Origin: a virus | Length of the DNA: 35,275 bases | IMG/VR virus record: IMGVR_UViG_3300025141_000355 | Span: 1 to 35,275 of that record | Direction: 5' to 3' (one strand) | In this document: positions 3,584 through 35,275 of the stretch, piece after piece | How positions within the stretch are numbered: position 1 is the first letter of the stretch | Layout of the letters: each line of letters starts with the position of its first letter | The notes under the pieces: generated by a model | Seen by the model: the letters and a program-made list of their open reading frames with translations, nothing else | What the model was told of the DNA's origin: nothing | Database searches by the model: none | Made by a program: the position numbers and the translations under genes

Positions 3584-3783
3584 TTGAGATTGAACACTGG
3601 ACAAGAGACACCAAACCAGAAAGCAACCCACACGGAAACAGCCACAGGCGCAGATGTCTCATCTGTCGAGGCCGGTTCGATGAGCTCATCGTGTTTCACA
3701 ACTGGGACGCCAAGCCGATGGAACGTGCAAAGATGTGCATGGGTTGCGTTCGCAAGACCATCGAGGCGGCGAACAATGTCTGA
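3571..3783 (+). CDS. Small zinc-ribbon protein (70 aa)
   Basis: Two Cys-x-x-Cys knuckles, CLIC (about residues 29-32) and CMGC (about 56-59), are about 23 residues apart, as expected for a zinc ribbon or treble-clef-like fold. It has many His and Arg residues between and before them. The gene overlaps its upstream neighbour by 13 nt and its downstream neighbour by 8 nt. Proteins of this size and pattern in phages usually bind nucleic acid or partner proteins. It could be an accessory factor for the adjacent modification genes, judged only by position. Confidence 0.75.
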   Translation: MPDLIEIEHWTRDTKPESNPHGNSHRRRCLICRGRFDELIVFHNWDAKPMERAKMCMGCVRKTIEAANNV

Positions 3784-16084: not shown

Positions 16085-16087
16085 GTA

Positions 16088-16459: not shown

Positions 16460-16488
16460 GATCTACCCCTGGACATTACCGATTCTTA

Positions 16489-16848: not shown

Positions 16849-16866
16849 AGCATCACCCCCTATAGA

Positions 16867-17262: not shown

Positions 17263-17651
17263 TACTTAACCGTAAACCAACCTGTGATGGTGTCGCCAAT
17301 AGCCGCGTCGCCAGTTTTGGCCGCAGTGCTAACTTGCCATATACCGAGAGTATCAAATGCTACGCCGCCGGTCGATGACGAAGACGCGTCGGTCACTTCC
17401 ATCGAAATGGTATTCCCCTCTCGAAGAGGAAACTTGATGTCAGGCTCATCTGTACCAACAACAACAGTTTTGTCCGTCAAAGTAATCTTGATGTAGCCAG
17501 TCTCAGTTCCGCCATTTGTTGCGGCAGAAAGAGAAATGCCATGCAAAGTTCCGGATGATGCCTTGATGTCATCAGATACCGTCTGATCGATATCTGTGCT
17601 CTTGATGACGTGGGTATTCAGATCAAGCCCAGTAGTGGTTGTGACTGCCAT
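17262..17651 (-). CDS. Beta-rich virion-like protein, paralogue 4
   Basis: This 129-aa member of the set has GYIKITLTDKTVVVGTDEP, then DIKFPLREGNTISMEVTDAS and a final strand GWFTVK. Its order of blocks matches the others: K-x-x-L-x-D, G-x-D-E-P-D, then a Gly/Asn turn. It shares TAATG overlaps with genes on both sides, so the three genes are translationally coupled. Low-complexity Thr/Ser-rich N terminus. No enzymatic motif. Confidence 0.7.
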   Translation of the reverse strand: MAVTTTTGLDLNTHVIKSTDIDQTVSDDIKASSGTLHGISLSAATNGGTETGYIKITLTDKTVVVGTDEPDIKFPLREGNTISMEVTDASSSSTGGVAFDTLGIWQVSTAAKTGDAAIGDTITGWFTVK

Positions 17652-17956
17652 TACTTACACCTCGCTCCAGTGGCCTGGCAGATAGCGGAGATATTCACAG
17701 CCTGTTCGGTCTGCTCTGTTCTCATCGCTCTCTGTTCTACCATAAGTTCTTCAAGTACAGCATTGTGGTCTTCCAACTGCACAGCACTGACGGGATGAGA
17801 TTCCAGCTTCTCGTGCCCATCGAAGTCAGCAGTGAGCGTCACCAACTCAGCGCGTACCTCTCCCGATTGCCACAACAACCCACCGGCTGTGAAGATAATC
17901 GGCACAAGCCACAGTGCAGCTTTCAGTGCGTCATCCTTGGTGAGTGCTGAGGCCAT
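17651..17956 (-). CDS. Small membrane protein with coiled coil (holin/spanin-like)
   Basis: This 101-aa protein has one transmembrane helix at about 12-30 (ALWLVPIIFTAGGLLW) followed by a long acidic helix, and ends with two Cys (ICQATGARCK). The layout is like the membrane protein at 16489-16848 and like i-spanins or class III holins. The ATG at 17956 overlaps the upstream stop by TGATG, which fixes the start; a TTG one codon earlier is not needed. Again it is embedded among virion-like genes. Confidence 0.65.
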   Translation of the reverse strand: MASALTKDDALKAALWLVPIIFTAGGLLWQSGEVRAELVTLTADFDGHEKLESHPVSAVQLEDHNAVLEELMVEQRAMRTEQTEQAVNISAICQATGARCK

Positions 17957-18972
17957 CAATATCCAGCCTTTCCTATTCCACCATAGACGTTCGTTCGCCC
18001 CGGAACATAGGTCGGATTGTACTTCTCTCCATACATACTAAGTCGGTAGAAAAGCTTCCAACCAGAGAGAGCTACAACCGGATCGTCTGTAATAGCGCTA
18101 TTCAATGCCGAATCCTCGATCTGCCAACAGGGTGCGACAAACAGCATCACTTGGCTATTGACCATGGGATCGGAGCCATAGTCAGGGTCGATACCCTCTG
18201 ACATACTACCAAACGTAGTCCTAACGATCATTCGATGGCTTGCATCAAGCGCCATCTTGATTCCATAGGCAGGAGCGACTTTAGTTCCAGCAGTCTGGGC
18301 ATCATCCGTGAGCAAATGCGGAAGGGCTACATGGGTAGCAACGCAAAGATTTCCACCACTGACAGTTGTTTGTGATGCCGGAGCCCCAGCACGGAACACC
18401 AAACCAGCATTTCCTGCAGCCTGTTTGTGCCATGTCGCGTTGAAGAAGTTGTCTACTGCATTATCCGTTGTGCTGGTAAGGATGTTGTCCGTGCTAATCC
18501 CAAAGGCAACACCAGCCATCTGACCATTCGTTGGCGTGTTTCCAGTTTGGATACAGAGTAGCTCGATACCGAAGTTATCGTCCCACTTGACCGCAGCTCC
18601 GTTAGGACCAATCAGTGGTGTTGCGAATCTTCCAGCGGTATTATCGACGTTATCCCACTCGTAGTTATTTGATCCGGTTGCCGCCTCTACTCCATCAGAT
18701 TGTAACCAAAAGTAAAGTCCAGTTGAGTCTGCCTTGACGTACTGACCAGCCGCAGATGGGTTGTCGTCCATCGTGCTGTTGGGATCGTACCTGTACCAGA
18801 CTCCAGGCACTGGGAGATTGGCATCGTCTGCAAAACTCGGAGGAGAACCGGGCTCGCCATTCGCACTCGGATCGATAGAGATCCAAGGATTGAGTCCCGC
18901 ACGCATCCTTTGCGTATTCGGTGTATGCCCAGAATAAACAACGGGGCCTGGAGAACGGCTGCGACGACTCAT
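17956..18972 (-). CDS. Virion protein, probably tail or appendage (338 aa)
   Basis: The 338-aa protein is rich in Gly, Asn, Asp, Thr and Ser and appears beta-rich. The start is Arg/Ser-rich (MSRRSRSPGPVVYSGHTP), the middle has repeated D/N-rich loops, and the end is aromatic (KLFYRLSMYGEKYNPTYVPG). I recognise no enzyme or fold by name. Its place between beta-type virion genes and a fibre-like gene suggests a tail or fibre-associated protein. The ATG overlaps the next gene by ATGA. It may attach to the fibre encoded at 19338-20186. Confidence 0.65.
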   Translation of the reverse strand: MSRRSRSPGPVVYSGHTPNTQRMRAGLNPWISIDPSANGEPGSPPSFADDANLPVPGVWYRYDPNSTMDDNPSAAGQYVKADSTGLYFWLQSDGVEAATGSNNYEWDNVDNTAGRFATPLIGPNGAAVKWDDNFGIELLCIQTGNTPTNGQMAGVAFGISTDNILTSTTDNAVDNFFNATWHKQAAGNAGLVFRAGAPASQTTVSGGNLCVATHVALPHLLTDDAQTAGTKVAPAYGIKMALDASHRMIVRTTFGSMSEGIDPDYGSDPMVNSQVMLFVAPCWQIEDSALNSAITDDPVVALSGWKLFYRLSMYGEKYNPTYVPGRTNVYGGIGKAGY

Positions 18973-19328
18973 GATGCAGCGATCCTGTTCACGAATCCAT
19001 GGATGCTAACTACGTCAGCCTCACTCGCATATGCTTTTACCACAAGGCTGTTCTGAAGAATCAGCCCAGGACATACCAGAACAGTGTCATCAGGGTTCAG
19101 GGTGTACTTGATATCATTGTCTACGGAAGTTGTGCCTCCGAACTGAATGGTCAGTACCACTGATCCGGTGTGTGTGTTGGTAGCATACAACCAAATCTCA
19201 TCGTATAGATTCGCGGTGGTTGTACTGTCAGCCGTGTGGATGGTTGTTCCGGCGGATGATGTAGCTGCTACTTTGACACCGATACCATCAGTGCCCCCAG
19301 ACAACTCCTGCTTTTTCATTACTGCCAT
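18969..19328 (-). CDS. Virion-like beta protein, paralogue of the plus-strand gene at 10033-10455
   Basis: This 119-aa protein shares several blocks with the plus-strand protein at 10033-10455: DEIWLYATNT, a following V-x-L-T-I-x-F-G strand, VCPGLILQ and HGFVNRI. It is beta-rich with no signal peptide. The family is likely a virion surface protein; the partner copy is unexpectedly within the replication block. ATGA overlap with the next gene supports the end. A duplication with different expression times is the simplest reading. Confidence 0.7.
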   Translation of the reverse strand: MAVMKKQELSGGTDGIGVKVAATSSAGTTIHTADSTTTANLYDEIWLYATNTHTGSVVLTIQFGGTTSVDNDIKYTLNPDDTVLVCPGLILQNSLVVKAYASEADVVSIHGFVNRIAAS

Positions 19329-19337
19329 TGTAAAATC

Positions 19338-20186
19338 CTATGAGAAAACTTGTTGATGGAGGATGTGGTCCAAGTCATTAGCGGAAGCCCCGCCACCACC
19401 AGCACCTAACTGCGTATCGGTTCCAGCGTCATCCGTAAACCAAAGTTCGTTTGGAGTGGTGTTCTTCACCCAAAGCTGGCCATACGCTGCCTTGGGGTTG
19501 AACGTAAGTGTTCCGTTTGTGACGGCACCACCGGTAGTAGAAGCGCTCAACTCAAAGGTAGTTGAGTTCGTAATGGATGCGACAGTGGCACCCCCCGGAA
19601 TGCCCGAACCCGAGACAGCCAATCCCACCCGCAGGTTTGCGGTGGAGTCCATCGTAATCGTGGGATCGTTGTTGTAATCACAGGTTGCATCCGTAAACTT
19701 GTTCTCCGCAGCGGCCCTCTCCTTAAGAGAAACAGCGCCTTCAACAACAACTGTTGTACTGGGAGCAGCGGTTTTAAAGCCAAAGAGCCCAGCACTCTCG
19801 TCGAAGTAGAGCCCGGTTGTTGTGTTGGTGCCGTAGATGTGGAAGTCGCGGGCTGATGTATCAAGTCGATTGATGCCGTCATAGGCACCGCATGTCATGA
19901 ACGCGTCGAGGTCTGCAATAGATCCAAAGTGCCAGCGGACTCCAGAGGCGGTTGTCCCGTCAACAGCGAAGGTGTAGTTGGAACCGTCTGAGTCTTCAAC
20001 AATGAGGGCAGGAGTCGAGCCTTTGATGTGGAGGCTGCTGGCAGGATCGGTAAGGCCGATACCAACACGATTGTTGGTGGCATCGATAGACAGCGTACCG
20101 GAATCAATCTCCAGGTCGTCAGCCGTTACCGCTGTTGCTGTTACGCTTGTTTTTGTCGAGTCGAATCTATTGAAGAACCCACCCAT
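19338..20186 (-). CDS. Tail-fibre-like protein (282 aa)
   Basis: The protein carries the VGIGLTDPASSLHIKG motif (about 41-56) that marks many phage tail-fibre and fibre-tip proteins. It also has a VSGSGIPGGATVASITNSTTFELS segment (about 192-215) of the Ig-like repeat type. A Gly-rich GAGGGGAS hinge leads to a short helix at the C terminus. The N terminus (MGGFFNRFDSTK) could be the particle-attachment end. It lacks an obvious chaperone or sialidase domain. It likely forms trimeric fibres for host recognition. Confidence 0.7.
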   Translation of the reverse strand: MGGFFNRFDSTKTSVTATAVTADDLEIDSGTLSIDATNNRVGIGLTDPASSLHIKGSTPALIVEDSDGSNYTFAVDGTTASGVRWHFGSIADLDAFMTCGAYDGINRLDTSARDFHIYGTNTTTGLYFDESAGLFGFKTAAPSTTVVVEGAVSLKERAAAENKFTDATCDYNNDPTITMDSTANLRVGLAVSGSGIPGGATVASITNSTTFELSASTTGGAVTNGTLTFNPKAAYGQLWVKNTTPNELWFTDDAGTDTQLGAGGGGASANDLDHILHQQVFS

Positions 20187-20188
20187 TT

Positions 20189-20617
20189 CTACTGCCTCCC
20201 AACCCAGTACAGCCTGGCTTTCTTCAAAGTTACAGCTCCTGCGTCCACCTTTAGAAACAGGGAAACCTCACCAGAAGTCGCAGATGCCGGCTCACGAATC
20301 CACACATCCATTGCGATCGAGGTGTTCCTCAAGCTGGTATCGGTAAGACCAGCATGAAGCGAAACCCCCGATGCCTCGGCAGTCAGTGGGTCATCACCGT
20401 TCGCATCCCAGCAAAGAAACGCTGATACGGTTGCAACGGTGCTACTTGTCTCATCCAGCTGAAGTTCCAGATGAGACAGGTAACAGGCGCTTGGCATCCC
20501 TTTAGAGTTCGCGTCCGAGGTGGCGTCCGCATGCAGCTTGATTACTTTTCCAGCTGCATAGGACGTACCAATCGAAGTGACCTCTGCGTCGTTTACAACA
20601 AAACCTTGGTCAGCCAT
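20189..20617 (-). CDS. Virion-like protein (142 aa)
   Basis: The 142-aa protein is beta-rich with many Ser, Thr and Asp residues and ends with LKKARLYWVGRQ. No named domain. The ATG is preceded by a strong GGAGG ribosome site within a 29-base gap. Its placement next to the fibre-like gene and its composition suggest a structural or fibre-associated protein. It might be distantly related to the small proteins further down, but I could not align it with confidence. Confidence 0.65.
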   Translation of the reverse strand: MADQGFVVNDAEVTSIGTSYAAGKVIKLHADATSDANSKGMPSACYLSHLELQLDETSSTVATVSAFLCWDANGDDPLTAEASGVSLHAGLTDTSLRNTSIAMDVWIREPASATSGEVSLFLKVDAGAVTLKKARLYWVGRQ

Positions 20618-20646
20618 TCCGGCCTCCTAGTTAGAAGGTGGAAGGA

Positions 20647-21099
20647 TCAGGTTGCGCCGCCAACAAGTCCACGCCATGTAGTTCCGTCGCAATAAGCCAA
20701 ACATTGTTCGGCTTCCTCAATGGTAGCGATTGTGGCTGCAGCGTCATTACGAAGTGTAATGGTCTCACCGGAAGACCCGGTGGCATTGTTCATAATGAAA
20801 AGAAGGAGTCCAGTGCAAAGAGCCTCAGCCGGAAGATCCAGGTTCCTGTTACCAGTAGGGTCAACAACCAAAAAGTTAGATGTGATGACAGTCTGGTTTG
20901 AAGCAGCGGTTCCCTTGACCAACAAGGTGTGAGCCGCAGCCATAGTGATGGCTTCGCCCTTGAATGTCAGGAGGTTAGTTGCACCAGCCAAGGCACCCAT
21001 AAGTGCGGACTGACCCTTGACCTTCAGGCCAAAGCCCGCCTCAACGGGGATATCGTGATTGAGCGCATTGCCGTTCATCATTTCGGGGATTTGTGACAT
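20647..21099 (-). CDS. Virion-like protein, probably beta-helical (150 aa)
   Basis: The 150-aa protein is a run of short strands rich in Ala, Thr, Gly and Asn, with an LFIMNNATGSSGETITLRND stretch in the middle and a LAYCDGTTWRGLVGG ending. The latter resembles the CD-x-TWR-x-L ending seen in fibre and tail-tip proteins. AGGAG lies 9 bases before the ATG. It is the first gene after the 72-base gap that separates it from the giant gene. Confidence 0.65.
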   Translation of the reverse strand: MSQIPEMMNGNALNHDIPVEAGFGLKVKGQSALMGALAGATNLLTFKGEAITMAAAHTLLVKGTAASNQTVITSNFLVVDPTGNRNLDLPAEALCTGLLLFIMNNATGSSGETITLRNDAAATIATIEEAEQCLAYCDGTTWRGLVGGAT

Positions 21100-21171: not shown

Positions 21172-24100
21172 CTACTTAGGAGGCTTGAATCCAGGGATAG
21201 TATGACTAAGAATACCACCCTCATATCTATAAGGATCGGAAAGCTCCGCCCTTGAGGTCGCTTTTCTGAGATCTGCGATGTGTCGCTGCTGGATTTTCTT
21301 GCCAGCAATAAAGCCATGTTCAATCGGCATGGGGCGGATTCCCATCAATCCAAGGAACTCGTCGTACCATTCCAGGCCACGCCGTGGCGACATGGTGTCC
21401 TCACTAAAGTCAGACGGACGCATCCTTCTGTCCGAGGCCGGATCCCATCCTCTGCCCAGCTCTTTCGTCTTGGCGTTCATCCACTCTACAGGCCCTAGAT
21501 TGGCTCGATCGATAGCGCTGATGGTGTCCATAGACCGGCCAGCTGTGGGAATTTGCATCAGGTTTCGCCAAATCCACCACATTTTTCCGTTTCTTGCGTG
21601 GTACCAACGCTCCATGCCTTTTGTATCCCGCTTGGATTGGTCCGCATGAGCTCTCAGTTGGACGTCGAAAACGTCTTTGACCAGCATTCCGCCCGTCATG
21701 TTCAAGTCCCACTCGACCAACCAGGTGGGAACGCGGTTGTAGAGCTCCAACTCCTTGCCCCAGAAGATGTCCTTCTCCTGGGCAAACACGAATGGCGCCT
21801 GCCACCACGGTGCAACGTGACCGACCAGGCCACGGATGGCCTCGTTGTCTCCCTTTAGGGAATCGATGAAATTGAGCGGCCACAGAATCGCATCCTGATA
21901 GGGAAGCGGAGGAACTATGTACATCCACTGGTTCAACACATGCTGATTGGCTGCAGCATCCTTGAATCCGACAGGCAACCTGGTTTGGGCGTACTGCTTA
22001 AGCACGACTTCAGGGTCTTCCTCGAGCGCGATCTGCTGAATCCCACGGACCAGGCGCATTTGGCCAATGATGCGCTCCGGGTTCGTCAGAAGCGTGTCCC
22101 AGAACAGATCCATGTTCTTTCTGAAGTAGGAATAGAACAGAATCGTGCTGCGCATGTACGTCTTTTCAAACTCGGTCAACGCCGCGTAGTCAAGCCCGGT
22201 CTTTCTTGCGAGCTCGGCTGCTGCGTGGGGCGTCGCCCCGCGAACACGAGCATCCACATAGGCGGAAAGACGGAAGTAGTTGTCGATAGCGGTCGAGGTT
22301 TCAATAAGGCGATCTTGATCGAACACCTTTGCCATGGCTTTTCCAAGCGGACCACGCCGAGCTACACGAAATTCCTTCTGCATCAAGGCTTCGACCCCTC
22401 GCTGGGTCTCTGCATAGGTGAAGCCAGACTTCATTCCGTACAAATCGGTTTCCATGTCCAGCATGTCTACCGTTAGCGTTTCACCTGATTTGGTCGGAAT
22501 AGGTTTCGCGTACCGCTTGTATTCTCCTTCTCTCCATTTACGGGCAATCAGCGCCATTTTCATTTCGTTGTTTGTAGCAACCGCCCGCAACGAACCAATT
22601 GGCCCCATTCCCTCGTACATCTGGTAGTAAGCGCCAATTCCCACACCGATGTAGTACGCTGGGTTTGGCAAGAAAATACCGGTCGTGACGCCCATTCTCG
22701 TATGACGAGCCGTCATCGGAAACAGCCTCATCATTTCATCGATTGTCTTGCCCAGCTGGCCCTCAGCCAACACCTTGCCCCACTGTTCCACGTCAACGCC
22801 GGTAGGACGTTCTTTCAAAGCCTGGCGTCCCTGCTTCCCGATTAAAAACGATCTGGCCGGGGCAGCTCCGCTTCTGGCGGTTCCGACTTCTGCCAACCGA
22901 TCGAGCGCGTCATAGTACTCTCTTGCCGCGCCAGCCGGCATTAGGGATTCAGTCCCATCATGAAACGTGACCCTTTCCCAGGCTTCTGTAGAAAGCTTCA
23001 CTCCGACGCGATCAAGGATTTCCATAGCCTCGGTATACGCAGCCATTTCGTGCATGTTGCCGGGAATACGAGGATCTTGCTTCCAGCCTTGGCGTTTGGC
23101 GTATTCAGCCCGCTGCGGAGACAGCATAGACTTGCCTTCCTCGGAAGCAGGAGCGTCTGGAGGACGGCTGGTCCATGTTACTCGAGTCTCACCAGTGGGC
23201 GTGCCATCCGGAGCCAGCACATCCACCGTTTTTTGGTACAAAAGCTCAGTAGCCTGGTAGTTCAGATGCATCTGAATGTAGAACTGGACCATGTCGATGT
23301 GGGCGTCACGACGAAAACCCGTGTATGCCTTTGTGACTGCATCGAATAGCGGCAAATCTTTGCCCAGTTCGGTCACATCAGTCATCAAACCGTATCGGGC
23401 CAAGTCCCTGGATGTGTCGCCCATGAGCTCATAGGCCCGCAAGCGCACAATCATGTTCAACAACGCCTGGTTGATTTGATAGCTTGTGAACTTGTCTACT
23501 ACGTGCCCGGCTTCTCGACCTTTATCCAGCATCCTATCGAATATCTTTACGAAATCCCCTTGGTAAAACCACTTGTAGAAAGCGGCCTTTTCTTTAACCG
23601 TCATGTTTAGCAAAATGGCGGCGTCCCTCTCTCCCGCAGCAGCGATTGCAATCCAATTGCCTACTTCAGTGATTCTGTTGTGAGCAGATTCAAGCGCCAT
23701 CTCAATGTGCCCAAACACATCCCCAAGAGAAACGAGGTCGTCATCGGTAAGTTCGCCTATCCAATCCAACCCAGACTTCCCACCAGCCTTGGCTTCCTCC
23801 AAAGACATTGCGTATCGGCGCAGAGGCTGAAGAATGTTCATGCGCTGGTTTTCTGTGTAGCGGCTTGACGCGGCTAGTACGCGCTCGAACATGTGGTGGT
23901 TGGAGATGATGTACTCGACCTTGCTCATTCCCTCTTCACCAGTAGCGAAGTGGTAACCAGGTCCCATCTGCTCTTTGCCGCTAAGGAAGTCACTACTCTT
24001 TTCTGTTGACTCACTGTAAAGGCGGGCCTTTTCGGCACCAGTCCACTCCCGCAAAAACTCGAGCAAGCCGGTGGTTTTGCTGGTCATCTTCGGATCGATG

Positions 24101-27100
24101 TGCTCCAGATTGATTGTTCCCATAATGTCATCGACCACAGACGGGTCGACCGGGGGCCTGAGGGTATTCTTCAGTTTTACAAAAACTTGTTGAAGGGTGA
24201 GCTCTTTTTCATTTTTCAGTGCGTCTCTTACGATCAGCAAAATTTCTCTTGGAGCTCCTTCCATCATGCGGATGTTTTTCTGAAGCACCTGCGAATAAAC
24301 CGGACCAAGGTTGCCACCAGCAAACTCCTCCAGCTTGAACATCCGGCGCATATTTTTTACCAGCCTGTCCACCGACTCGCTTGAGTCCGACAAGTCCACA
24401 ACGCCAGACTTCATCGCGTTCCAAAGCGCGTAGGCCATCGATGGATCGATTTCTTCCGAGTAGTGAGCCCTTTTTGCGCCGGCACCTGCCTCGATGTCGG
24501 ACACCGCCTCTATGACTGATGCCCATTCGTCCTGAAACATCGTGCTGAGATCCGCGTCTGGAACCAGCAAGCGATCTGGAACGACATTGCCCATTGGGTG
24601 CCTGGCCAAGTCCTGTGCAAGAACCTTCATTCCAGCCTGTTGAGCTGGGTCCAATTCATGCCAGCCGACCTCAGCGCCCAAGTCCATTTTGTCATCTTGC
24701 CATCTGCGTCCAGCCGTCAGGGTTGGCCGTTCCGCTTCCGGTATAATGATGTCGCCTGCTTTGTTGCGAATAGCCCGCCACCCAGGAAACGGCGCACCGA
24801 TGGCCGTATGAATTCGGTCGGCCATCCGTTTCTGTACGGCCTTTCGTCGCTTCTCTGGAACCATGGACCGGGGCGTAATCATGAAGATACGCTCAGGCCC
24901 AAGCAGCTTCTTCGACTGTTCTGCAGCAATATACCCGACAGCTGACACCAACAGTTCTGTGGGGTCAATATGGGTCTGTCCTTCCTGAATACCGAGCTCG
25001 GCGCGAACTACCCTTGGGTCTTTGTTGACAGCCCAAAACGCACGCTGCTTGGCCTTCCTTGGCTGCACTTCCGCAAGAAGCCTTTCCTGTGCCGTTTCTG
25101 CGAGAAAGGTCTTCGGGTGTTTTCGGGTAGCTTTTTGCGTCAGCTTGATGGCATCGCTTTCGTAGCGCAACTCCGGGCGAAGGAACCTATCAAAGAAGTT
25201 CCGCACTTCCGGCGGAAGAATCGAAACCTGACCACGAATCTTGGCCCAGTAGTCCTGAAGGGTCAGATACGCCTGGTCGAGATATCGCTTGAGACCGCCA
25301 TGGGTCGATGTTGCTGACCTGATGTAGTATTCGAACGATCTCGCCGCCTGGCGCTCACCACGTTCCGTCAGAATGAACCTACCGGCATCATCCCTTGTGG
25401 TTTCAAAATGCCTGACAAACCCCTGGGTCCACTTTTCGCCCATGAACTTACTAAGCAGCAAAGCGTTGGCACGAACCAAGGTCTTGTAGTTTCCAAACTT
25501 CAACACATCGACAAGCGCACTGTAGCTATCGGGGTCAAAGCTGAAGTATCCACCCTCTTCACCTGGTGCGCCGTGAAACAGGATCTCAAACTGTGAGGAA
25601 GGTGTTGGCTCATCTGGGCCGCCCGCCTGGGGTCGCTTCGGGCCTCGAGGCCCACCAGCATCGCGCACAGTGAGCTCAAGCGCGGCTTGTATATCCGGTG
25701 GCAGCTTGTTGACCTGAATGCGCTGCAGGTTCCAAGCCGCCAACGCGTGCTCGTCAACGAAGTTTTGCGCCTGCGGGTTCTTCTTCTTTACCTCCGATCG
25801 TATCTGCCAGGACTTCTTGGCCCTGTTTAGCAGCGCATTGGTCTTTAGTGTGGCCAGTCGCGGCATCTCCAGCATCGTTTCGCCACCAGGCGCGACTGGG
25901 CTGGACTTGATGATGCCCCGAATTCTTTCTGCAAAGTAGGCGTCATACTCTTTCTTGGTCACCTTCTTGCCTTGCATCTCTTCTGCGCGAAGATGATCAA
26001 CTGCCTGCAGCCTTGCCTCCGGATCCTCTCTGGTGTTCAGGAACTCTTGGTAGATCCTATACAGGCTCTCTTCGGTGCTAGCCCACCCACCGGACGAGAC
26101 ACCATCACGGTCAGTCTGCAACTCGAGCATTGCGGCTTGTAGTCGACTCAACAACTCATTGGCGCCGGCCTCCATCTCCTCGATTCCATCGAGCCGGCCT
26201 TCTCGGTGCCTGGTCATGATGTCGTCGGTCAGAGACTCCCACTGCTTCCGCAGGTCGTTGACCCGAACTGCCGCTTGCCCGCTGACAGGAATGTCCCAAA
26301 TCTCTTCCGGACCCAAACCCTGCCTTGAAGCGGCGTAGGCGTGCTCATATTCCTCAAAGGAAAGATAGGCGTCCTGCATTGCACGCTTGGCGTCAGATAG
26401 GTCAATGAAGCCAGCGCCCTGAACAGCCTGTTCGAGCTCTTGCTGTGGCACCGTAGAGGGCTCTACATCCGAAACATCGCGGAGCCGTACCATCCGCTTC
26501 GAAGATGAGATCGAGAAAAGCAATCTGGATTCATTCGAACGACGCTCGTAGATCCTGCGAATGTTCTCTACTTCCACCTCTTCCTTCATCAGCCGGTCTA
26601 CGAAGTCGGTGAAGTACTCCGCAACATCCTTGTCGATGTCGAGCGACTTGATGATGCCCTCGTCGTCATAGGTGCGCTTGAGGACGGAGGCTATCCTTGC
26701 AAACAGGTTCTTGAATATCGTTCTCACTTCTTGTGAGAAGGACCGTACCGTTGCTGTACGAATCGTAAGTTCTTCAAGATCAGCGCCAAGGATGTCTTCT
26801 GTGAGCCTGATGACATCAGTAAGAGCATTCGTTTCTTTTGCATCGATTCCAAGCAGGTCTCGAATGAGTTCCACAAACCGAGTGAATGCAGTCTTGTTGC
26901 CCTTAGTTCTTATGCCTTTGAGAATTTCTTGAAATCCCTTGTTAGTCAACCCAAAAGAAATCAACTCGTCTACGCTTGAGGTTGCATACTCAATTCTACT
27001 TTGATCCCAGCCGGGTACTTTTGTACGCGTCCATTCTTGGCGAACATATGCGCGTACACCCTCAAGCTCCAAATAAGCCTTACCAAGCGCTGTGTTTTCG

Positions 27101-30100
27101 ACGTTTGGCATCCAACTCGCATCGATCAATCTACGTTGAGTTGCGCCGTGAAGAAGTTCATGAACTATAGTTTCAGACGAAATGCCGTGGTTTTTTATTG
27201 ATTCAGACCGAAACCAAATCACTGCCTTGAATTTAGACGGGTCAACAGGCACTTGTTCGCCTGTTTTTTTGCTTGTTTTAGGTATGTCGTATACAACTTT
27301 CGACACCGCTTTGGTGCCCGATGTTTCATCTAAAATGTCAGGAGGAATCCTTTCCTCTCTTGCTAGGCCTGCCGGTTTTTTTCCACGATAAATACGAGCG
27401 CTTACCCCGTCTAAGTGCGGAGAGATAAGTTTCAGTATCGTTCGATAGGATGGGTTGTCTGCATTTTCCGACAACCAATCAGCGATAGCGCGTCCGTCTT
27501 CTAGGGACTCAATCTTTGCTTCGAGTTCTTGTGTGGATAGATCCCCAACGCCCGGCTCGAGATCTATCACCTCTACTTCGCCCTTTGCCGCATGAGCCAC
27601 ATCGCCAAACTCGTCAGCTTCGATAGCAGCCATGAGCTCATCGAACCCACGGTGGCCCAGTAGGTTCGAGGCCAGCATGTCAGCTGCCCACTCATTGAAC
27701 ACCGGCTCAATGCTCTTCTGCTTGACGACCGCAACATCATCACGCCTATGCCATCCCTCGAACCCGGCCTTCTTGTGGACGTCGAAAGCTCGGCGCATTG
27801 CCGACAGCTCATCGTCGGTAAGGATGTTCTTCATCAGCGTATGGGAGAGCTCGTGCAGAACGTGGAATACCAACACGTCCTTGTCATGAAATCCCATGAA
27901 CTCATTTGTTATAGAACCCAGGATAGCTTCTATCCGGCCGTTTACCCGAAGTATGGAGCCCTCGGTCCCAAGGGAAACTAGGTTAGGCGGTATTTTTCCT
28001 TGCCTGGCATAGTCCTGCAGCATCTCCTGCATACCACTCCAGCCGTGCCGAATCTTGACGTCCGGGTCTTCAAACAGCCGCCTGGCGATTTCCACAAAGT
28101 ACGGAGTGGCTGCATCCATAAAGGCTGTGTCGTAGTCCAAGCGAAAACCGGGATTGTTTACGAACGCCTTTTCGTCAGCCAATCGATACAGGGTTTCATC
28201 GATCATCGTTGCGAGTTCTGAAAACAACTCATCGCCAGATAGGCCCGCCATCTTCTTGGCCGTGGCGGCTTTCAGCTTAGTCGCTTTGCGCGTTTTGATG
28301 GTGGTGATTGCTTTGAGTTGCTGCACAAGCGCCGCATCGTCGAGCTGGCTGTCTGCCGCCCTTTCTAGATAGGTCTGGCCGAACACGCGCCTATCTTCAA
28401 GCACCTCTGGGTCTTCGATGCCTCTAAAGTCCACCCGCTCAAACCATTCGGATGGCAAGCGATCCATTACCTTGTGGAGAATCGCCGCGCCCTCAGTGCT
28501 CAGGTGCCCATCAAATGACATTTGGTCAATATGGGACATTGCCATTCTGCGCTGGAAATTAGCAGCACCGCTTTCTATCGGACCAGGTGCCGCCTTTCCG
28601 GTCAGGATTGGATACCGACCATAGAGCTCGGCCCAGCGCTGGACAGCTCCTGCCAACTCTTTTGCTGTGTACTGCTGAAGCCATTTCGGATCTTTGTCCG
28701 GAATGATGACGAGATCCTGAATGATCTTAATCAGACCAGCCTTCTTCATCTTCGACAGGTCTTTCGATAGAACGTCCATCGCACGCTCTCGAAGCGTCGG
28801 CCCAACCTCAACAGATCGAACTTTGTCCGGAACATCTTCTGGCTCGCGGGCCTTTTCAGAAACCCAGAACTTGTCTTTGGGTGTAGGCACTTCCTCTGCT
28901 TGTTTTCCGAAAAGAATGACCGGAACACGCTGGATGCCCAACTCTTTAGCGGCGTATGCCCTGTGCCTTCCGTCTTCTTTTCCGTCTGCGTAGATAGCCA
29001 AAGGGTCTAAGGTTCGACCAGATTGAATGTGGCTCTTTAGGTCGTCAATGTTTTCCCTTGCTATCGGATCGTCTGGGTCCAATGGTCTGACCCTTTTCAG
29101 GTACTCATCTGGCGACATGCTGACCATGTGCCCATCTCTGGCTTCATAGTCTGCATCCCCGTACCAGTCACCACGATCAGCCAGTGGGTACTTAGGCTCA
29201 GTGCTGGGTGCCTCGGGCTCCTCAACTCTGGGTGCTGGCACCTCTTCAACTGGGGGTGCCTCTATCTCCTCAACTCGAGGTGGTGGTGCCTCGGCCTTTA
29301 CGCGCTCTTTGGCCCAGCGAGGATGCGGCTCTGCCAAAACAATGGTGTATCCGTCTTCCGTTTCTATCGATTTTGTAATCGTTGGAAGACCATACAAGTC
29401 ATCAGCGAGGTGCGTGCGCGAACCAATCTCGCTTGCGCGACCAGGCATGATGGTGACCATCGCGCTGGGTGCTATTTGGTTGTTTTGTGCCCACCCCCTT
29501 GTTATTCGTTCACCAAAGTCATCAAGTATAATTTTGCGTTCTTGTGCGGTTACGGCTTTTTCCAACACATCCGCAAATACAACCTGGATGTCAGCTTCGG
29601 CTGCGGTCCGTGCAGAAGAACGAATGTCCAGCGTCAAATCCTGCAGCGTGACGTAGAGCGTTCCTCCTCGTAGGCTGAGAAAATCGTCATCAGCAACCCA
29701 AAGAAGGCCAACAGGTCTTCCCTCGCCAGGGCGTTCGGCTTCCAATCTTCTGACGTATCTGGCTTCCTTTGGATTGAGACCAAGCGCTTGCAAAATATCT
29801 TTTCGGCCTGGTTGCTGCGCGATCTCCACGCCAAGCGCCTGCATGTCGGGAGGGAAATCCAAACCCTCGCCTGTAGGTAGATGCCACCCAAACGACTCGC
29901 CCTCCCAACTCACGTAACTAAGTTTCCGAGGCACCGACGGAACCAACGGCGCATCAAAATCAGGAGCCAGCACAGATGGTCGCTTAGTGGCCTTCCAAGT
30001 GCCGGTTTTGGAGTCCCACTTGTAGTTACCGGTCATCTCTTCAAGGGGCTTCGATAGCTCTTCAGCAATCTCTTTTGACGATGGTAGTGGTTCCGGAGCC

Positions 30101-33100
30101 TCAACCTCCACAGGCTCTGGAGCCACGCCAGGTCCACCACCAACATCATCAGGCGTCTCAGGCGGCTCGGGCGGCTTTCCTCTGCGTCGAATCTCAACTG
30201 CTCGAAACCAGTCCACGGGTGTTTTGATGGAAGGAACGTCCGCGTCATAGGACATGCGCCAGGCGTTTTGCTCCATCAGGCCGAGCATCCAGGCCCCGTG
30301 GAGTTGTTCAATATCGCCAGCTTCCACCAAGGCCTGAATGCCCTCTTTCACCCGGATGTACTCTGGGGTGGTGCGCAATTGCTGTGTCCCCGGATCACCC
30401 TCAGACATAAGGCGCTCAAGCCCTGCCAGGTGTAGCCTTCCATTTTTTCGGGATCCGCTTACCACATGCTCGATGACGTCTCGCATTGGGTCATCAACGC
30501 CAGCGACTTTCAAAGTATCGTGAAGCGCGCTTCCGGGGTCGACTTTACCATTATTGTGCCACTTGCTTGGAATGATATCCAGAACGTCTACGTCACCCCT
30601 AAGAATCGCATTTTTGAGGGATGTTTCCATCATAAAGCGCATGACGGTCCAAACGTCCGCATCCATTTTTTTGTCTACGATATCCAGCGCTTCCGCATAG
30701 GTTCCACCAGTCTCCGACATGTGGTCCCGAACCTGTTGGGCCACCTTGCGTTCGGTCCTACCGAGAGCTCCTTCACCAGTTCTAGCTATTGCTTCCTCAA
30801 CATCTGCAAGGACTTTCCCACCGGGAATGAGATCCTCGAGATTATTGATGGCTATCTGGACTGGCAAAGCGTCGGCAGACAGTGTCTTTGTGAACACCCA
30901 CGAGTTCGCAGCAGCCAGCATAAACCGAGACCTTTCCGACAATTTCATGCCCGCACCAGTCAGGTCTTTGTTTGTCCGGTACGCACGAATCCCTCCCCCG
31001 GTCGGAACGCCGACAGAGGCTATGAATGGACGTTCCCAGTAAACCGTCCAATCCGCCAACAAGCCCAACGCACCCAGCACGTCATACTGCATCGACCCGC
31101 GCTCATGACCACGAGCCAAAGCGTCGTCAGTCATGTGCCTAGCAAATCCCATCTCACCGGTTTGGATGTTCGCCAGAATACGACTCAGATAGGTTGAGTC
31201 GGGGCTACGAATCATCGTCGTACCAGAGCGCTGGAAGTCTCGGCCAGCTGGCGTGATGTACGGAATCGGCGCCTCTGCATAGAACTCAGTGGCCGCACCA
31301 ATGACGCGCATGATTCGACCAACAGATCCTTCTACAACCTGCGGCACCCCATCCACTTCCTTTGTGCGAAGCATCAGGCGCCCCATCGCCTGCTCCATGC
31401 CACGGCTTCCAGCAGCTCCTCCGCCAGTGGTCTCGATGGCCCCAATCGATACGCCGGCAGCAATCAATACCGCGTCTGCCCAGGACTCTTCCGCCGGAAT
31501 GGAGCCAGCATAAACACTCTCAGGAAGCTGGCCAATAGCAACCGACTCAAGAGCGTTCAGAAGAGTCGTATCAGAGATGCTGTTACCACCTTCTCTGTTG
31601 ATTTCATCAACGATTCTCGCAAGACCAGGCCTTGATTTGTCTTTGGCGGCCTGAGGATTGAGTCTTGCCCACCTCTTCATTGCCGTCGTGGACAGGTTTC
31701 CGAGGCGCATTTCTGGGGGAAGATCCAACCAGGCATTGTTGGAGACCATGCCACGGAATGTGGGACCAAGATTTGTCCGAATCTCCTTGTCCGACATCCC
31801 GTTCTCTTTGGCGGTCTGCAGTTCCCGAACAATCTGTTCGAACGATTCTGTTGGGCGAGACCGGGCGATCTCAGTTCTAAACCGTTCAGCATCGTCTCCA
31901 CTTAGAAATATTGGAATCAGGCTTTGGGTACCGAACCCGAGCTTGACTTGAATTCTTGAGGATAGATTGACCATTCCCGCAGGCAATGCGAAATACCAGC
32001 CATCGTCTTTCGCGGCCTTGCCAAACGCTGGAACCGGCTTCCAGAAGTCCCCGCCACCTCGATCCATTTCCTCGTAGACATGACCGCCAGCCCACCCAAT
32101 AACGCCACCGATGATGGCACCAGCAACAATACCAACCGGACCACCAGTGGCACCAACTGTTCCACCCTCTGCTGCGGTTACGGCTGCGGGTATAAGTTTG
32201 GGAAGAACCCTACTCCCCACGGCCCGTGCCGCCTGCTTCATAGTGGTTGTGCCACCAGGTAGTCTCGAAGAAATAGCCTTCACGGCACCGCTACCGGAAA
32301 GAATCCCCGCACCACTACCAGACAGAGTGGATACAGCTGTGGCCCACCCATCGTACTCGGGGGCGTCAGGCAAATAGAGTTTGAGCTGTTCTGCTTCCTC
32401 AAGGCTCATTTTGGCGTTCGGTGCCCATACAGCACTCATGGCGGCGCCGATGCCCTCGTCTTCCAGCATCTCTCGATACTTTCTCTCTACTTCACGCCTA
32501 CCCGCCCAGCGCTGCTCCGGAACACGAACGGCTGCTTCCGTTCTTGGAAGGTCAACGACTCGGGGACCGAAGGCTCGACCCCAAGCCTGCATGAGGCCGC
32601 GAGTCATCAGGATTTCTTCTGGCCAGGCAGCGATTGGGGCTTCGCCAATGAGCTTCTCTACTTCCTCATCGCTTGCGCCACTATCGATCGCTTCAATGAT
32701 CTTGCGAACGCTTGTGGTGTCGACTTCTCTTAGATTGGGTCCGCCAGCCGGCCTATCGTCTGGGTCGTCGGCCAGAAGTTCTCGAACCCGTTCTACGCTC
32801 GGCGGGTTTGACAATGTTGGAGCATGACCCCATGGATAGTAATCCATCATGTGGTCAACCATGTCCATTCTGCGACGAGCTTCTTCCGCTGTAACGCCTG
32901 GCGTGCTTTCAATGTCTGCAAGGGTCGCTTCTCTTAGAGCTATCCTTACTTCGGAACGCTCACGCCGTGTCGGCTCGTTTGGAATGCGAGCGATGCGTGG
33001 ATCTATCGGTCCCTCTTCCGGCTCTTTCTTTGGTTCTTTCTTGTCGAGTTGCGGTCTTGGGCCGAGACGTTCACGTTCATACTCAGACGCTATGTCAATA

Positions 33101-33186
33101 GCGTCCATTACCTCTTCTTTCGTAACCGTACCAGGTCCTTCCGTGAGAAATTTTTCGAGAATCTGGTCGTCAGTTAGCTGGGGCAC
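21172..33186 (-). CDS. Giant polyvalent virion protein, 4004 aa
   Basis: This single 12-kb frame resembles the 'polyvalent proteins' of phages, multidomain proteins thought to be delivered with the DNA. Visible modules: a charged N terminus; a hydrophobic Gly/Ala segment (about 335-375) that could span a membrane; two Pro/Glu linkers (about 1000-1035 and 1299-1328); a ParB/sulfiredoxin-like domain (about 1353-1428) with DGRHR at 1405-1409; a gluzincin-like metallopeptidase with HELSH (1778-1782) and a third ligand in NEWAAD (E1832); a second HELLH (2009-2013) with a candidate third ligand in SVDELIS (E2074); long helical regions; and a C-terminal module (about 3490-3720, including FEKTYMRSTILFYSYFRKN) typical of large polyvalent-protein-associated domains. 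The start is GTG at 33186 after AGGAAA. I found no transglycosylase, polymerase or ART motif by eye. Confidence 0.85.
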   Translation of the reverse strand: MPQLTDDQILEKFLTEGPGTVTKEEVMDAIDIASEYERERLGPRPQLDKKEPKKEPEEGPIDPRIARIPNEPTRRERSEVRIALREATLADIESTPGVTAEEARRRMDMVDHMMDYYPWGHAPTLSNPPSVERVRELLADDPDDRPAGGPNLREVDTTSVRKIIEAIDSGASDEEVEKLIGEAPIAAWPEEILMTRGLMQAWGRAFGPRVVDLPRTEAAVRVPEQRWAGRREVERKYREMLEDEGIGAAMSAVWAPNAKMSLEEAEQLKLYLPDAPEYDGWATAVSTLSGSGAGILSGSGAVKAISSRLPGGTTTMKQAARAVGSRVLPKLIPAAVTAAEGGTVGATGGPVGIVAGAIIGGVIGWAGGHVYEEMDRGGGDFWKPVPAFGKAAKDDGWYFALPAGMVNLSSRIQVKLGFGTQSLIPIFLSGDDAERFRTEIARSRPTESFEQIVRELQTAKENGMSDKEIRTNLGPTFRGMVSNNAWLDLPPEMRLGNLSTTAMKRWARLNPQAAKDKSRPGLARIVDEINREGGNSISDTTLLNALESVAIGQLPESVYAGSIPAEESWADAVLIAAGVSIGAIETTGGGAAGSRGMEQAMGRLMLRTKEVDGVPQVVEGSVGRIMRVIGAATEFYAEAPIPYITPAGRDFQRSGTTMIRSPDSTYLSRILANIQTGEMGFARHMTDDALARGHERGSMQYDVLGALGLLADWTVYWERPFIASVGVPTGGGIRAYRTNKDLTGAGMKLSERSRFMLAAANSWVFTKTLSADALPVQIAINNLEDLIPGGKVLADVEEAIARTGEGALGRTERKVAQQVRDHMSETGGTYAEALDIVDKKMDADVWTVMRFMMETSLKNAILRGDVDVLDIIPSKWHNNGKVDPGSALHDTLKVAGVDDPMRDVIEHVVSGSRKNGRLHLAGLERLMSEGDPGTQQLRTTPEYIRVKEGIQALVEAGDIEQLHGAWMLGLMEQNAWRMSYDADVPSIKTPVDWFRAVEIRRRGKPPEPPETPDDVGGGPGVAPEPVEVEAPEPLPSSKEIAEELSKPLEEMTGNYKWDSKTGTWKATKRPSVLAPDFDAPLVPSVPRKLSYVSWEGESFGWHLPTGEGLDFPPDMQALGVEIAQQPGRKDILQALGLNPKEARYVRRLEAERPGEGRPVGLLWVADDDFLSLRGGTLYVTLQDLTLDIRSSARTAAEADIQVVFADVLEKAVTAQERKIILDDFGERITRGWAQNNQIAPSAMVTIMPGRASEIGSRTHLADDLYGLPTITKSIETEDGYTIVLAEPHPRWAKERVKAEAPPPRVEEIEAPPVEEVPAPRVEEPEAPSTEPKYPLADRGDWYGDADYEARDGHMVSMSPDEYLKRVRPLDPDDPIARENIDDLKSHIQSGRTLDPLAIYADGKEDGRHRAYAAKELGIQRVPVILFGKQAEEVPTPKDKFWVSEKAREPEDVPDKVRSVEVGPTLRERAMDVLSKDLSKMKKAGLIKIIQDLVIIPDKDPKWLQQYTAKELAGAVQRWAELYGRYPILTGKAAPGPIESGAANFQRRMAMSHIDQMSFDGHLSTEGAAILHKVMDRLPSEWFERVDFRGIEDPEVLEDRRVFGQTYLERAADSQLDDAALVQQLKAITTIKTRKATKLKAATAKKMAGLSGDELFSELATMIDETLYRLADEKAFVNNPGFRLDYDTAFMDAATPYFVEIARRLFEDPDVKIRHGWSGMQEMLQDYARQGKIPPNLVSLGTEGSILRVNGRIEAILGSITNEFMGFHDKDVLVFHVLHELSHTLMKNILTDDELSAMRRAFDVHKKAGFEGWHRRDDVAVVKQKSIEPVFNEWAADMLASNLLGHRGFDELMAAIEADEFGDVAHAAKGEVEVIDLEPGVGDLSTQELEAKIESLEDGRAIADWLSENADNPSYRTILKLISPHLDGVSARIYRGKKPAGLAREERIPPDILDETSGTKAVSKVVYDIPKTSKKTGEQVPVDPSKFKAVIWFRSESIKNHGISSETIVHELLHGATQRRLIDASWMPNVENTALGKAYLELEGVRAYVRQEWTRTKVPGWDQSRIEYATSSVDELISFGLTNKGFQEILKGIRTKGNKTAFTRFVELIRDLLGIDAKETNALTDVIRLTEDILGADLEELTIRTATVRSFSQEVRTIFKNLFARIASVLKRTYDDEGIIKSLDIDKDVAEYFTDFVDRLMKEEVEVENIRRIYERRSNESRLLFSISSSKRMVRLRDVSDVEPSTVPQQELEQAVQGAGFIDLSDAKRAMQDAYLSFEEYEHAYAASRQGLGPEEIWDIPVSGQAAVRVNDLRKQWESLTDDIMTRHREGRLDGIEEMEAGANELLSRLQAAMLELQTDRDGVSSGGWASTEESLYRIYQEFLNTREDPEARLQAVDHLRAEEMQGKKVTKKEYDAYFAERIRGIIKSSPVAPGGETMLEMPRLATLKTNALLNRAKKSWQIRSEVKKKNPQAQNFVDEHALAAWNLQRIQVNKLPPDIQAALELTVRDAGGPRGPKRPQAGGPDEPTPSSQFEILFHGAPGEEGGYFSFDPDSYSALVDVLKFGNYKTLVRANALLLSKFMGEKWTQGFVRHFETTRDDAGRFILTERGERQAARSFEYYIRSATSTHGGLKRYLDQAYLTLQDYWAKIRGQVSILPPEVRNFFDRFLRPELRYESDAIKLTQKATRKHPKTFLAETAQERLLAEVQPRKAKQRAFWAVNKDPRVVRAELGIQEGQTHIDPTELLVSAVGYIAAEQSKKLLGPERIFMITPRSMVPEKRRKAVQKRMADRIHTAIGAPFPGWRAIRNKAGDIIIPEAERPTLTAGRRWQDDKMDLGAEVGWHELDPAQQAGMKVLAQDLARHPMGNVVPDRLLVPDADLSTMFQDEWASVIEAVSDIEAGAGAKRAHYSEEIDPSMAYALWNAMKSGVVDLSDSSESVDRLVKNMRRMFKLEEFAGGNLGPVYSQVLQKNIRMMEGAPREILLIVRDALKNEKELTLQQVFVKLKNTLRPPVDPSVVDDIMGTINLEHIDPKMTSKTTGLLEFLREWTGAEKARLYSESTEKSSDFLSGKEQMGPGYHFATGEEGMSKVEYIISNHHMFERVLAASSRYTENQRMNILQPLRRYAMSLEEAKAGGKSGLDWIGELTDDDLVSLGDVFGHIEMALESAHNRITEVGNWIAIAAAGERDAAILLNMTVKEKAAFYKWFYQGDFVKIFDRMLDKGREAGHVVDKFTSYQINQALLNMIVRLRAYELMGDTSRDLARYGLMTDVTELGKDLPLFDAVTKAYTGFRRDAHIDMVQFYIQMHLNYQATELLYQKTVDVLAPDGTPTGETRVTWTSRPPDAPASEEGKSMLSPQRAEYAKRQGWKQDPRIPGNMHEMAAYTEAMEILDRVGVKLSTEAWERVTFHDGTESLMPAGAAREYYDALDRLAEVGTARSGAAPARSFLIGKQGRQALKERPTGVDVEQWGKVLAEGQLGKTIDEMMRLFPMTARHTRMGVTTGIFLPNPAYYIGVGIGAYYQMYEGMGPIGSLRAVATNNEMKMALIARKWREGEYKRYAKPIPTKSGETLTVDMLDMETDLYGMKSGFTYAETQRGVEALMQKEFRVARRGPLGKAMAKVFDQDRLIETSTAIDNYFRLSAYVDARVRGATPHAAAELARKTGLDYAALTEFEKTYMRSTILFYSYFRKNMDLFWDTLLTNPERIIGQMRLVRGIQQIALEEDPEVVLKQYAQTRLPVGFKDAAANQHVLNQWMYIVPPLPYQDAILWPLNFIDSLKGDNEAIRGLVGHVAPWWQAPFVFAQEKDIFWGKELELYNRVPTWLVEWDLNMTGGMLVKDVFDVQLRAHADQSKRDTKGMERWYHARNGKMWWIWRNLMQIPTAGRSMDTISAIDRANLGPVEWMNAKTKELGRGWDPASDRRMRPSDFSEDTMSPRRGLEWYDEFLGLMGIRPMPIEHGFIAGKKIQQRHIADLRKATSRAELSDPYRYEGGILSHTIPGFKPPK

Positions 33187-33194
33187 AGTGTTTC

Positions 33195-33974
33195 CTATTC
33201 AGTTCCGGCATCTGCAGATTTCATAGATGATGGCCCAAGAGGAAATTCTTCTTCTCTCTTCAGATCTCCAGCAGAGACTCTCCTACGAATCTCTTCCATG
33301 GGCACACCCTCTCCCATCCACTCAGCTACCTGCTCATGGCGGCCTTTCTGAGCTTCCAACTTCCCCTCGTAAGAAGTAACGGGAAGATCTGGAAGAGGCG
33401 CTCTTACGTCTGGTACGTCTACCACTGGTGGTGGATTTATCACGTCCGCCCACTCCTGATAGAGCCAATGGCCAGGAGCGGGCTCTATCGGGAATCCAGC
33501 CGCGTCACGTTCCAGAGCGGAACTGTTTTCAGTGAGCCACAAGCGTTCTCGTTTTCGCTGTGCTCCTCTCTTCAATGCTTTGCCCATAGGATCCCTGGAG
33601 GGACCGAGTGGACCGCCCATGAATCCACCTTCTTCTCCCCGAAGGTCCGACCAGTATTGAGGGTCTTTGACTTGGCCAGCCGTCTTGACAGGCGTTGGCG
33701 CGGGACTGTCGCCAAACTTCGCCTCTGGCTTCAATAGTTTTTCAGATTCACCCCAGACACGATTAGCCTGTTGTGGGCTCCACGTATTTGGTCGCGGCGT
33801 CTGTGGCGGTGGCGCCTTCTTCTCCGCAGCGGGCCTAATCCTCACAGTAGGAGCTGCGGGTGCGGGTTCCAATCGCATCGCCGATCTCAAAGCGGCATCA
33901 TCTGAAGGGGGTGGCGCCTCAGTAGGTTCAGGCGCTGGCCTGCTTGGGCTCAAGCCTTTTCGTGTGTATCCCAT
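33195..33974 (-). CDS. Proline-rich virion/internal protein (259 aa)
   Basis: The ATG at 33974 overlaps the upstream stop (TGATG), which fixes the start; a longer frame up to 34049 is rejected. The first 100 residues are rich in Pro, Ala and Arg and probably disordered. The C-terminal half is helical and charged, with LEAQKGRHEQVAEWMGEGVP as a clear helix. No signal peptide or known domain. It lies 8 bases upstream of the giant gene and probably works with it as an internal or ejection-associated protein, by context. Confidence 0.65.
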   Translation of the reverse strand: MGYTRKGLSPSRPAPEPTEAPPPSDDAALRSAMRLEPAPAAPTVRIRPAAEKKAPPPQTPRPNTWSPQQANRVWGESEKLLKPEAKFGDSPAPTPVKTAGQVKDPQYWSDLRGEEGGFMGGPLGPSRDPMGKALKRGAQRKRERLWLTENSSALERDAAGFPIEPAPGHWLYQEWADVINPPPVVDVPDVRAPLPDLPVTSYEGKLEAQKGRHEQVAEWMGEGVPMEEIRRRVSAGDLKREEEFPLGPSSMKSADAGTE

Positions 33975-35275
33975 CAGCGTTGTCCTATTCTGACAGTTGC
34001 GACCATGTCTTGGTACATCTTCCGCTTCCTCGGGCCGGCACCTGCCCACCCCCCGGCACGCTGAACCTCACGAATATCGACAATCTCACCTGTTTGTGGA
34101 TTCTGCCTTATTACGTACTGTAGGGCCTCGAGTTCTTTAGGGTACCACCTGGTAGAATACACCAAGCCGGAATCTTGCGTGTCACGCCTATGAACCTCTT
34201 GGTATTCACCGCCGTACCGATCCCTGCCCTCGTTCGCTACATTCTTGCCCGCCGGGGAAAGTATAGGAGGCTGAATGGGATCCATTCCTCGCGGCCACGA
34301 CTGAATTATTCGGGACGAGGGTGCCGACTCTGGTGGTGAGGTGGGGATAGTTGCCCGGTATTCAAGAATATCTTTTCCTCTTTTTTTCCTTCCAGTCGGC
34401 GCTGGCGTGCCTGGTGGGGGTGTATCCAAGAATTGGAACTCATCCCCGAAACGCCCAGGCCATGTCGGATCGTTGGGTCCAGGCAGTCCGCCACCACCCT
34501 TGCGGAGTATTTCCTGACGACGTTGCTCTTCTGCTTGAGCTCTGCCCTTTTTATCTTCTTTGACATCTCCGGGCGTCGTCCCGGCAATTTCGTATGCGGT
34601 TGGGCCTGATTTTGATCGAGAAGGGGTCGGGTCTTTGATTAGTTCAGGGGGCGAATCGTCGGGTTTGATCGGATCGAATGTGGCTGGCGGTGGTCTATGA
34701 TCTTCAGGAGCCGCACTAGGCTCTTTGGGTTCAAGTTTAATGTCTGGCGCCTCGCGAGGAGTACCAGATAGTTTGGGGGCATAGGGGTCGGTTGCAACTT
34801 CCGCAGGCGTTCCCGCAGGCGGCTCGAGGGCTTCCGTAGGCGGCGGCTCTTCATCCATCTCCACCAGTTCTTGGCGCGGAGCCGATGGGTATCCTCTGTA
34901 TGGGCCAAGGCCTCCAACGATATTGTTCAGACTTGCCTCCATGTACCGACGATCCCCAAAGTCTTCCATGCGGCCGATTTCTTCAGAAATGGCCGTACCA
35001 GCCTCACCCCTAAGTTCTTCCGGAAGCGCATTAAGGCTATGCTTGATGCCAGCAAGTTGTTGCCCATATGCATCGTAGTCTTCATCTTGCCCAGACTCGA
35101 GAGCTCCCCGAATGGCCTCCTTGTAGGTATTGCTAAGAGATGAGACGCGATGAAGCTCTGGGTTGTCTTGAATGTTGGTGCTAACGGCACCCTGGACATC
35201 GTTAATGCCGGCAGCGATCCACTCATACATCGCGGTGACATCGCCTCCTTTCATGGCATTCTGGGCCTCACGCAT
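33974..35275 (-). CDS. Proline-rich structural/internal protein, cut at window edge
   Basis: The frame runs to the last base, which happens to be an ATG on the minus strand, so the true start may lie outside. The visible 433 aa have a helical N-terminal third (about 1-110) and then a long Pro/Ser/Asp-rich, probably disordered region (about 130-330) with repeated PP motifs. A compact C-terminal part (about 335-433) has EYQEVHRRDTQDSGLVYSTR. No domain is recognised. Its link to the next two genes by overlap or tiny gap suggests one structural or ejection module. Confidence 0.6.
   Translation of the reverse strand: MREAQNAMKGGDVTAMYEWIAAGINDVQGAVSTNIQDNPELHRVSSLSNTYKEAIRGALESGQDEDYDAYGQQLAGIKHSLNALPEELRGEAGTAISEEIGRMEDFGDRRYMEASLNNIVGGLGPYRGYPSAPRQELVEMDEEPPPTEALEPPAGTPAEVATDPYAPKLSGTPREAPDIKLEPKEPSAAPEDHRPPPATFDPIKPDDSPPELIKDPTPSRSKSGPTAYEIAGTTPGDVKEDKKGRAQAEEQRRQEILRKGGGGLPGPNDPTWPGRFGDEFQFLDTPPPGTPAPTGRKKRGKDILEYRATIPTSPPESAPSSRIIQSWPRGMDPIQPPILSPAGKNVANEGRDRYGGEYQEVHRRDTQDSGLVYSTRWYPKELEALQYVIRQNPQTGEIVDIREVQRAGGWAGAGPRKRKMYQDMVATVRIGQR

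Follow-up and report, generated by a model that had tools for sequence, protein, structure and literature searches.

The window analyzed here, a linear virus record of the IMG/VR type spanning 35,275 bases, contains a giant open reading frame on the minus strand (21172..33186) that reads from 33186 to 21172 through 4004 codons with no internal stop, while the frame opposite holds 56 stops. It begins with a GTG codon at 33186, with AGGA just 5' of it, and its start and length agree with those of a relative (L004, 3860 aa). The 4004-aa product carries a Gly/Ala-rich segment that is hydrophobic by hydropathy analysis (residues ~340-375; 32062..32169, minus), a DGRHR motif (1405-1409), HELSH (1778-1782) with NEWAAD (1831-1836), and HELLH (2009-2013). 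The preliminary description had reported a single 12-kb frame with these same features and with much of its length devoid of recognizable domains; all of this is borne out, although the description left out the strand and overlooked that the protein has no cysteine. A large share of the protein lacks a recognizable domain, and a Pfam search with the whole protein and with pieces of it returned no match at E ≤ 5 for the whole protein and no significant family for the pieces. The Gly/Ala-rich segment, which has a weak match to a PHROG tape-measure family (E 0.013), may possibly insert into a membrane.

Other parts of the window encode further functions. At 3584-5049, a QueC gene (Pfam E 4e-41) is adjoined by an ORF without a Pfam match whose sequence resembles a DpdA-type transglycosylase; the two could possibly account for a 7-deazaguanine DNA modification. 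The region 5006-6876 encodes a DNA methylase (N6_N4_Mtase) followed by a gene of the PAPS-reductase family. Two small proteins, one among the early genes (10033-10455) and one among the virion genes (18969-19328), look like paralogues by eye, and several similar small ORFs lie within 15671-21099.

Searches with the C-terminus of the giant protein found 22 IMG/VR loci as relatives, and relatives have giant ORFs of their own (3211 to 4715 aa) at homologous places. Common to the 22 loci is a core of ~2,310 aa, which in the window protein is split into an N-terminal scaffold block (residues 1-1001; 30184..33186, minus; core HMM E 3e-97) and a C-terminal scaffold block (residues 2553-4004; 21175..25530, minus). 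The core HMM was built from five short, minimal relatives (2310-2530 aa) in which the core is uninterrupted, with no cargo block and no HExxH anywhere; a sixth relative with a nearly full-length scaffold likewise has no HExxH. Other members are matched as an N-block and a C-block separated at profile positions ~850/878, and the position of this break is identical in every member having both blocks. In the window protein it appears as the single gap in the match (hmm 850 to 878), and the intervening cargo block comprises 1551 aa (residues 1002-2552; 25531..30183, minus). Cargo at the break measures ~1,420 aa in L004, whose C-terminus is 75% identical to that of the window protein, 1,100 in L005, 865 in L050 and ~3,110 in L038; three members with a weaker core match (L059, L060 and L062) have an additional ~1,900 residues close to this position. 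Both edges of the cargo block in the window protein carry proline-rich linkers: a Pro/Glu-rich linker with a 9-bp tandem repeat at its start (residues ~1003-1045; 30052..30180, minus) and a Pro-rich linker ahead of the C-terminal scaffold (residues ~2510-2532; 25591..25659, minus).

The most conserved stretch of the C-terminal block (~3498-3900) includes MGVTTGIFLPNPAYY and FYSYFRKNMDLFWDTLLTNPER. No homologue of known function was found for the scaffold, and a fold search of the PDB gave no match to it. The last 1,200 residues match nothing among the isolated phages of INPHARED, and two pattern scans of 84,980 bacterial and archaeal genomes recovered no prophage relatives. AlphaFold modeled most of the C-block with a pLDDT of 62 and the cargo with a pLDDT of 52, highest at the second zincin (mostly 70-89) and at the ParB-like module (~60-80). 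Foldseek comparison of both models with the PDB returned no match at E ≤ 0.001, the low-confidence models being too weak to exclude one. In BFVD, the C-block matches three phage-type proteins (E 1e-7 to 2e-4, with low TM-scores), one of which is named 'Large polyvalent protein associated domain-containing protein'.

The cargo of the window protein contains three candidate enzymatic domains. The first is a ParB/Srx-like module (residues 1330-1435, with DGRHR at 1405; 28882..29199, minus), which matches the ParB family PHROG 1033 (E 1e-3) and has a predicted order of beta-alpha-alpha-beta-alpha-beta. The piece searched alone against Pfam gave neither a ParB model nor any other match at E ≤ 5, and Foldseek placed it with a ParB-N structure at a probability of 0.89 but an E-value of 1.8; support for the fold is moderate. 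Over 106 aa, the module shares ~57% identity with gp6 of Octadecabacter Antarctic DB virus 2 (MW805364). It sits at a P/E-rich linker encoded by a 24-bp tandem repeat (29191..29295, minus); in the two closest relatives, L004 and L002, the module is missing and the repeat linker continues instead. Because it is absent there and so similar to gp6, it looks like an exchanged module. The 493-aa gp6 is likewise Cys-free and encoded among virion genes, but it is short, pairs the ParB module with an ART-PolyVal-like domain that scores below the Pfam cut-off, and has neither zincin nor scaffold. By analogy with the domains described by Iyer et al. (PMC5512222), the ParB-like domain is probably an NTP-dependent nuclease or switch.

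The second zincin, Z2 (residues ~1960-2150; 26737..27309, minus), has HELLH at 2009 and a distal glutamate at 2074. It matches phrog_2206 (E 1e-13), and its profile matches an internal virion protein of solved structure (PDB 9sfn, E 2.6e-18), gp48 of PhiM1 (8vb2, E 2e-4) and, weakly, the N4 virion RNA polymerase (vRNAP) structure (9pnr, E 0.03); direct comparison with the C1 domain of N4 by hhalign gave a probability of 97.5% (E 8e-12). H2009, E2010, H2013 and E2074 are 100% invariant in 48 Z2 sequences. The domain is found in large proteins, 28 of 29 complete IMG/VR ORFs with Z2 measuring 1946-4705 aa, and tblastn searches with Z2 additionally recover virion RNA polymerases and internal virion proteins of phages. 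By these matches, Z2 appears to be a member of a family that occurs in ejected virion proteins of solved structure, with good support for the fold. PhiM1 gp48, a tetrameric ejection protein and the counterpart of T7 gp16 (PMC11440229), shares the Z2-type domain with 9sfn; both differ from the giant in size (~1260-1340 aa, one third of its length) and in their remaining domains. Among other Z2 proteins, one of 3339 aa (L100) has two copies (residues ~1217-1396 and 2328-2497), and gp31 of a Limnohabitans phage (L013:10201-14931) combines Z2 with a lytic transglycosylase domain, linking ejection proteins of the T7 gp16 type to those of the N4 type. Unlike the T7 gp16 type, the giant protein gave no match to a lytic transglycosylase (SLT) domain in the Pfam search.

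The first zincin, Z1 (residues ~1690-1860; 27607..28119, minus), has HELSH at 1778 and, in NEWAAD, a glutamate at 1832; the HExxH and the distal glutamate are invariant across eight aligned Z1 sequences. Profile-profile comparison relates it to Z2 (82%, E 1e-5), and its match to the WLM metalloprotease is marginal (E 0.026). Z1 would represent a separate subfamily, distant kin of Z2, with weak support for its fold. The predicted model places helices at both HExxH motifs. Matching folds had been proposed at the outset as the test for these segments; the support for them is uneven, good for Z2, moderate for the ParB-like module and weak for Z1. At the start of the C-block (window 25333-25473), RANAL (2572-2576) aligns with HENGH, HESGH and HEQGH of L038, L039 and L047 and is followed by a glutamate-bearing helix; a decayed third zincin is plausible from this alignment. 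Profile-profile comparison of this stretch with Z1 and Z2 gave nothing, and a third zincin is not claimed.

Composition shuffles of the giant protein yield an expected 0.095 HExxH motifs (P = 0.003 for two or more), but conservation is the weightier argument that the sites are real. It also bears on whether the protein could be a tape-measure or otherwise purely structural protein with decayed enzyme-like segments, as the weak tape-measure match and the HExGH site that may have decayed at residue 2572 might suggest. This appears improbable: neither zincin shows any change in its catalytic residues, even between sequences sharing as little as 22-25% identity, Z2 is homologous to internal ejected proteins, and the neighboring genes are of podovirus type.

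None of the 4004 residues of the giant protein is a cysteine, where 25 would be expected at the rate of a relative's other structural genes and 73 at the rate of the other genes of the window. Large ORFs of the fetched loci were dropped as a control for this property, most being from loci fetched for carrying Z2. Relatives of the giant have 0-2 cysteines, seven of eight N4-like vRNAPs have none, and neither do gp15 and gp16 of T7; in the N4-like vRNAPs, this has been explained by passage through the tail and the oxidizing periplasm (PMC3715699, PMC2784036, PMC3915230). The two genes upstream are also Cys-free and on the minus strand: one of 259 aa (33195..33974), whose operon position is conserved and whose homologue in L023 starts with MGYTRSG, and one of at least 433 aa that reaches the window end (33974..35275) and is homologous to a 905-aa ORF of a 73-kb relative. 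In two relatives of ~73 kb, a small Gly/Ala-rich gene is followed by larger genes, these genes being Cys-free where checked, and then by the giant; terminase (TerL), the major head protein, an adaptor of the SU10 type and further virion proteins are encoded in the same cluster. Because this order resembles N4 gp52-gp51-gp50 and T7 14-15-16 and lies within a virion gene cluster, the phage is, judged by its genes, podovirus-like and the giant its last ejection gene, predicted to be packaged. The preliminary description had considered the protein polyvalent and delivered at injection, a view that gains from Z2 in solved ejected proteins, from the lack of cysteine and from the ejection-like operon; on these grounds, the protein very probably enters the host together with the DNA.

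The closest comparison is N4 vRNAP (gp50, Schitoviridae), which is ~3500 aa long, Cys-free and encoded beside other ejection proteins, and whose layout runs from an N-terminal domain (NTD) of ~1000 residues through the enzyme and the zincin C1, homologous to Z2, to a large C-terminal domain (PMC12633501). The phrog_2206 match, the size, the lack of cysteine and the domain order could therefore be read as signs of an N4-type virion RNA polymerase. That reading is extremely improbable, as the match spans the C1 zincin only and the N4-family RNAP profile found no counterpart in the giant or in any relative tested, by hhalign or hmmsearch; the family assignment is refuted. A ParB-like domain and a second zincin stand in place of the RNAP domain. 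The N- and C-blocks show no detectable homology to the N4 NTD and C2 (hhalign, not significant), the best match between the C-block and C2 having a probability of 2% and lying near the C-terminus of both. By analogy, the giant is thus a predicted delivery vehicle that would work like N4 vRNAP yet, having no RNAP, lies outside that family.

The literature already describes polyvalent proteins that include metallopeptidase and ParB domains (Iyer et al. 2017, PMC5512222), as it does the zincin of N4 vRNAP (PMC12633501). The giant resembles the former in its many predicted enzymatic domains per chain (ParB-like, Z1 and Z2), in the presence of metallopeptidase and ParB types, in its late or virion gene context and in its predicted co-injection. 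It differs in that no Pfam model recovers its ParB or zincin domains and in its scaffold with one cargo site. This scaffold family, with natural empty versions of the single site and exchange of the ParB module, appears to be undescribed in the open-access literature. In L038 (638-9970; 4715 aa, no Cys), Pfam identifies an ATPase domain of the GHKL/HSP90 type within the cargo (E 1.2e-6), and inspection by eye adds a DGRHR motif, a HEATH zincin and an HxHP motif resembling that of JAB; neither GHKL nor HSP90 is mentioned in the 2017 paper (PMC5512222).

Taken together, the evidence favors, with a probability of about 0.78, a virion-packaged ejection ('polyvalent') protein, encoded by a podovirus-like phage and corresponding to N4 vRNAP and T7 gp16 in where it lies and how it behaves, with scaffold at its ends and cargo at its center. 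The N- and C-terminal blocks (~1000 and ~1450 aa) would form a conserved delivery scaffold, and the proline-rich linkers would bound a cargo whose separate domains traverse the envelope like beads on a string. Here, the ParB/Srx-like domain and the two gluzincin-like putative metallopeptidase domains would enter with the DNA, with the periplasm, the inner membrane or the cytoplasm as their place of action during the first minutes of infection. The sequence itself establishes the architecture, its conservation, the single insertion site, the homology of Z2 and the lack of cysteine; packaging, ejection, zinc binding, catalysis and targets are predictions. Since six relatives have no HExxH and others have Z1 only, neither zincin seems to be required to build or deliver the scaffold.

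After entry, the zincins would most likely target envelope proteins, host proteins or the channel. A narrower proposal, that their targets are host envelope proteins or partner ejection proteins and that they thereby open or dismantle the ejection channel, is tentative. Unrelated podoviruses have domains of the Z2 family in their ejected proteins, with the four catalytic-type residues invariant in the 48 sequences compared, which suggests a common substrate in a common process; the N4 structure paper, however, just notes the HExxH motif and reports no activity (PMC12633501), and the words 'protease', 'metallo' and 'HExxH' do not occur in the PhiM1 paper (PMC11440229). The preliminary description had offered attack on host proteins, which is possible, or processing of the protein itself as a reason for the zincins. 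Such processing could occur in head maturation or, after entry, in the release of cargo domains, as Iyer et al. proposed for DdrB of P1. MPTase is the hub domain of polyvalent proteins and DdrB is processed (PMC5512222), and the linkers at the cargo boundaries would be natural cleavage sites. This explanation is nonetheless rather unlikely, and its general form is weakened by the six relatives that hold the scaffold without any HExxH, by the four that keep Z1 without Z2 (L006, L046, L048 and L050), and by N4 vRNAP, which is packaged unprocessed (PMC5512222). Because the minimal relatives have no HExxH, self-processing as a general requirement of the family is disfavored; release after entry may still occur in the cargo-bearing members, the minimal relatives carrying no cargo to release.

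A broader idea has chances that appear evenly balanced: these ejection proteins may be a general delivery scaffold, ~2,310 aa long and nearly Cys-free, whose one permissive site takes up foreign enzymatic domains totaling from 0 to >3,000 aa, such as zincins, ParB and, in L038, a GHKL ATPase, for transport across the Gram-negative envelope. The family provides a comparative series for the general polyvalent idea, with one scaffold and one site, with and without cargo, and allows domains needed for delivery to be told from payload. It also bears on whether the zincins of N4 vRNAP and of podovirus ejection proteins are working peptidases, and the cargo site may mark natural positions at which proteins could be taken along through a phage tail.
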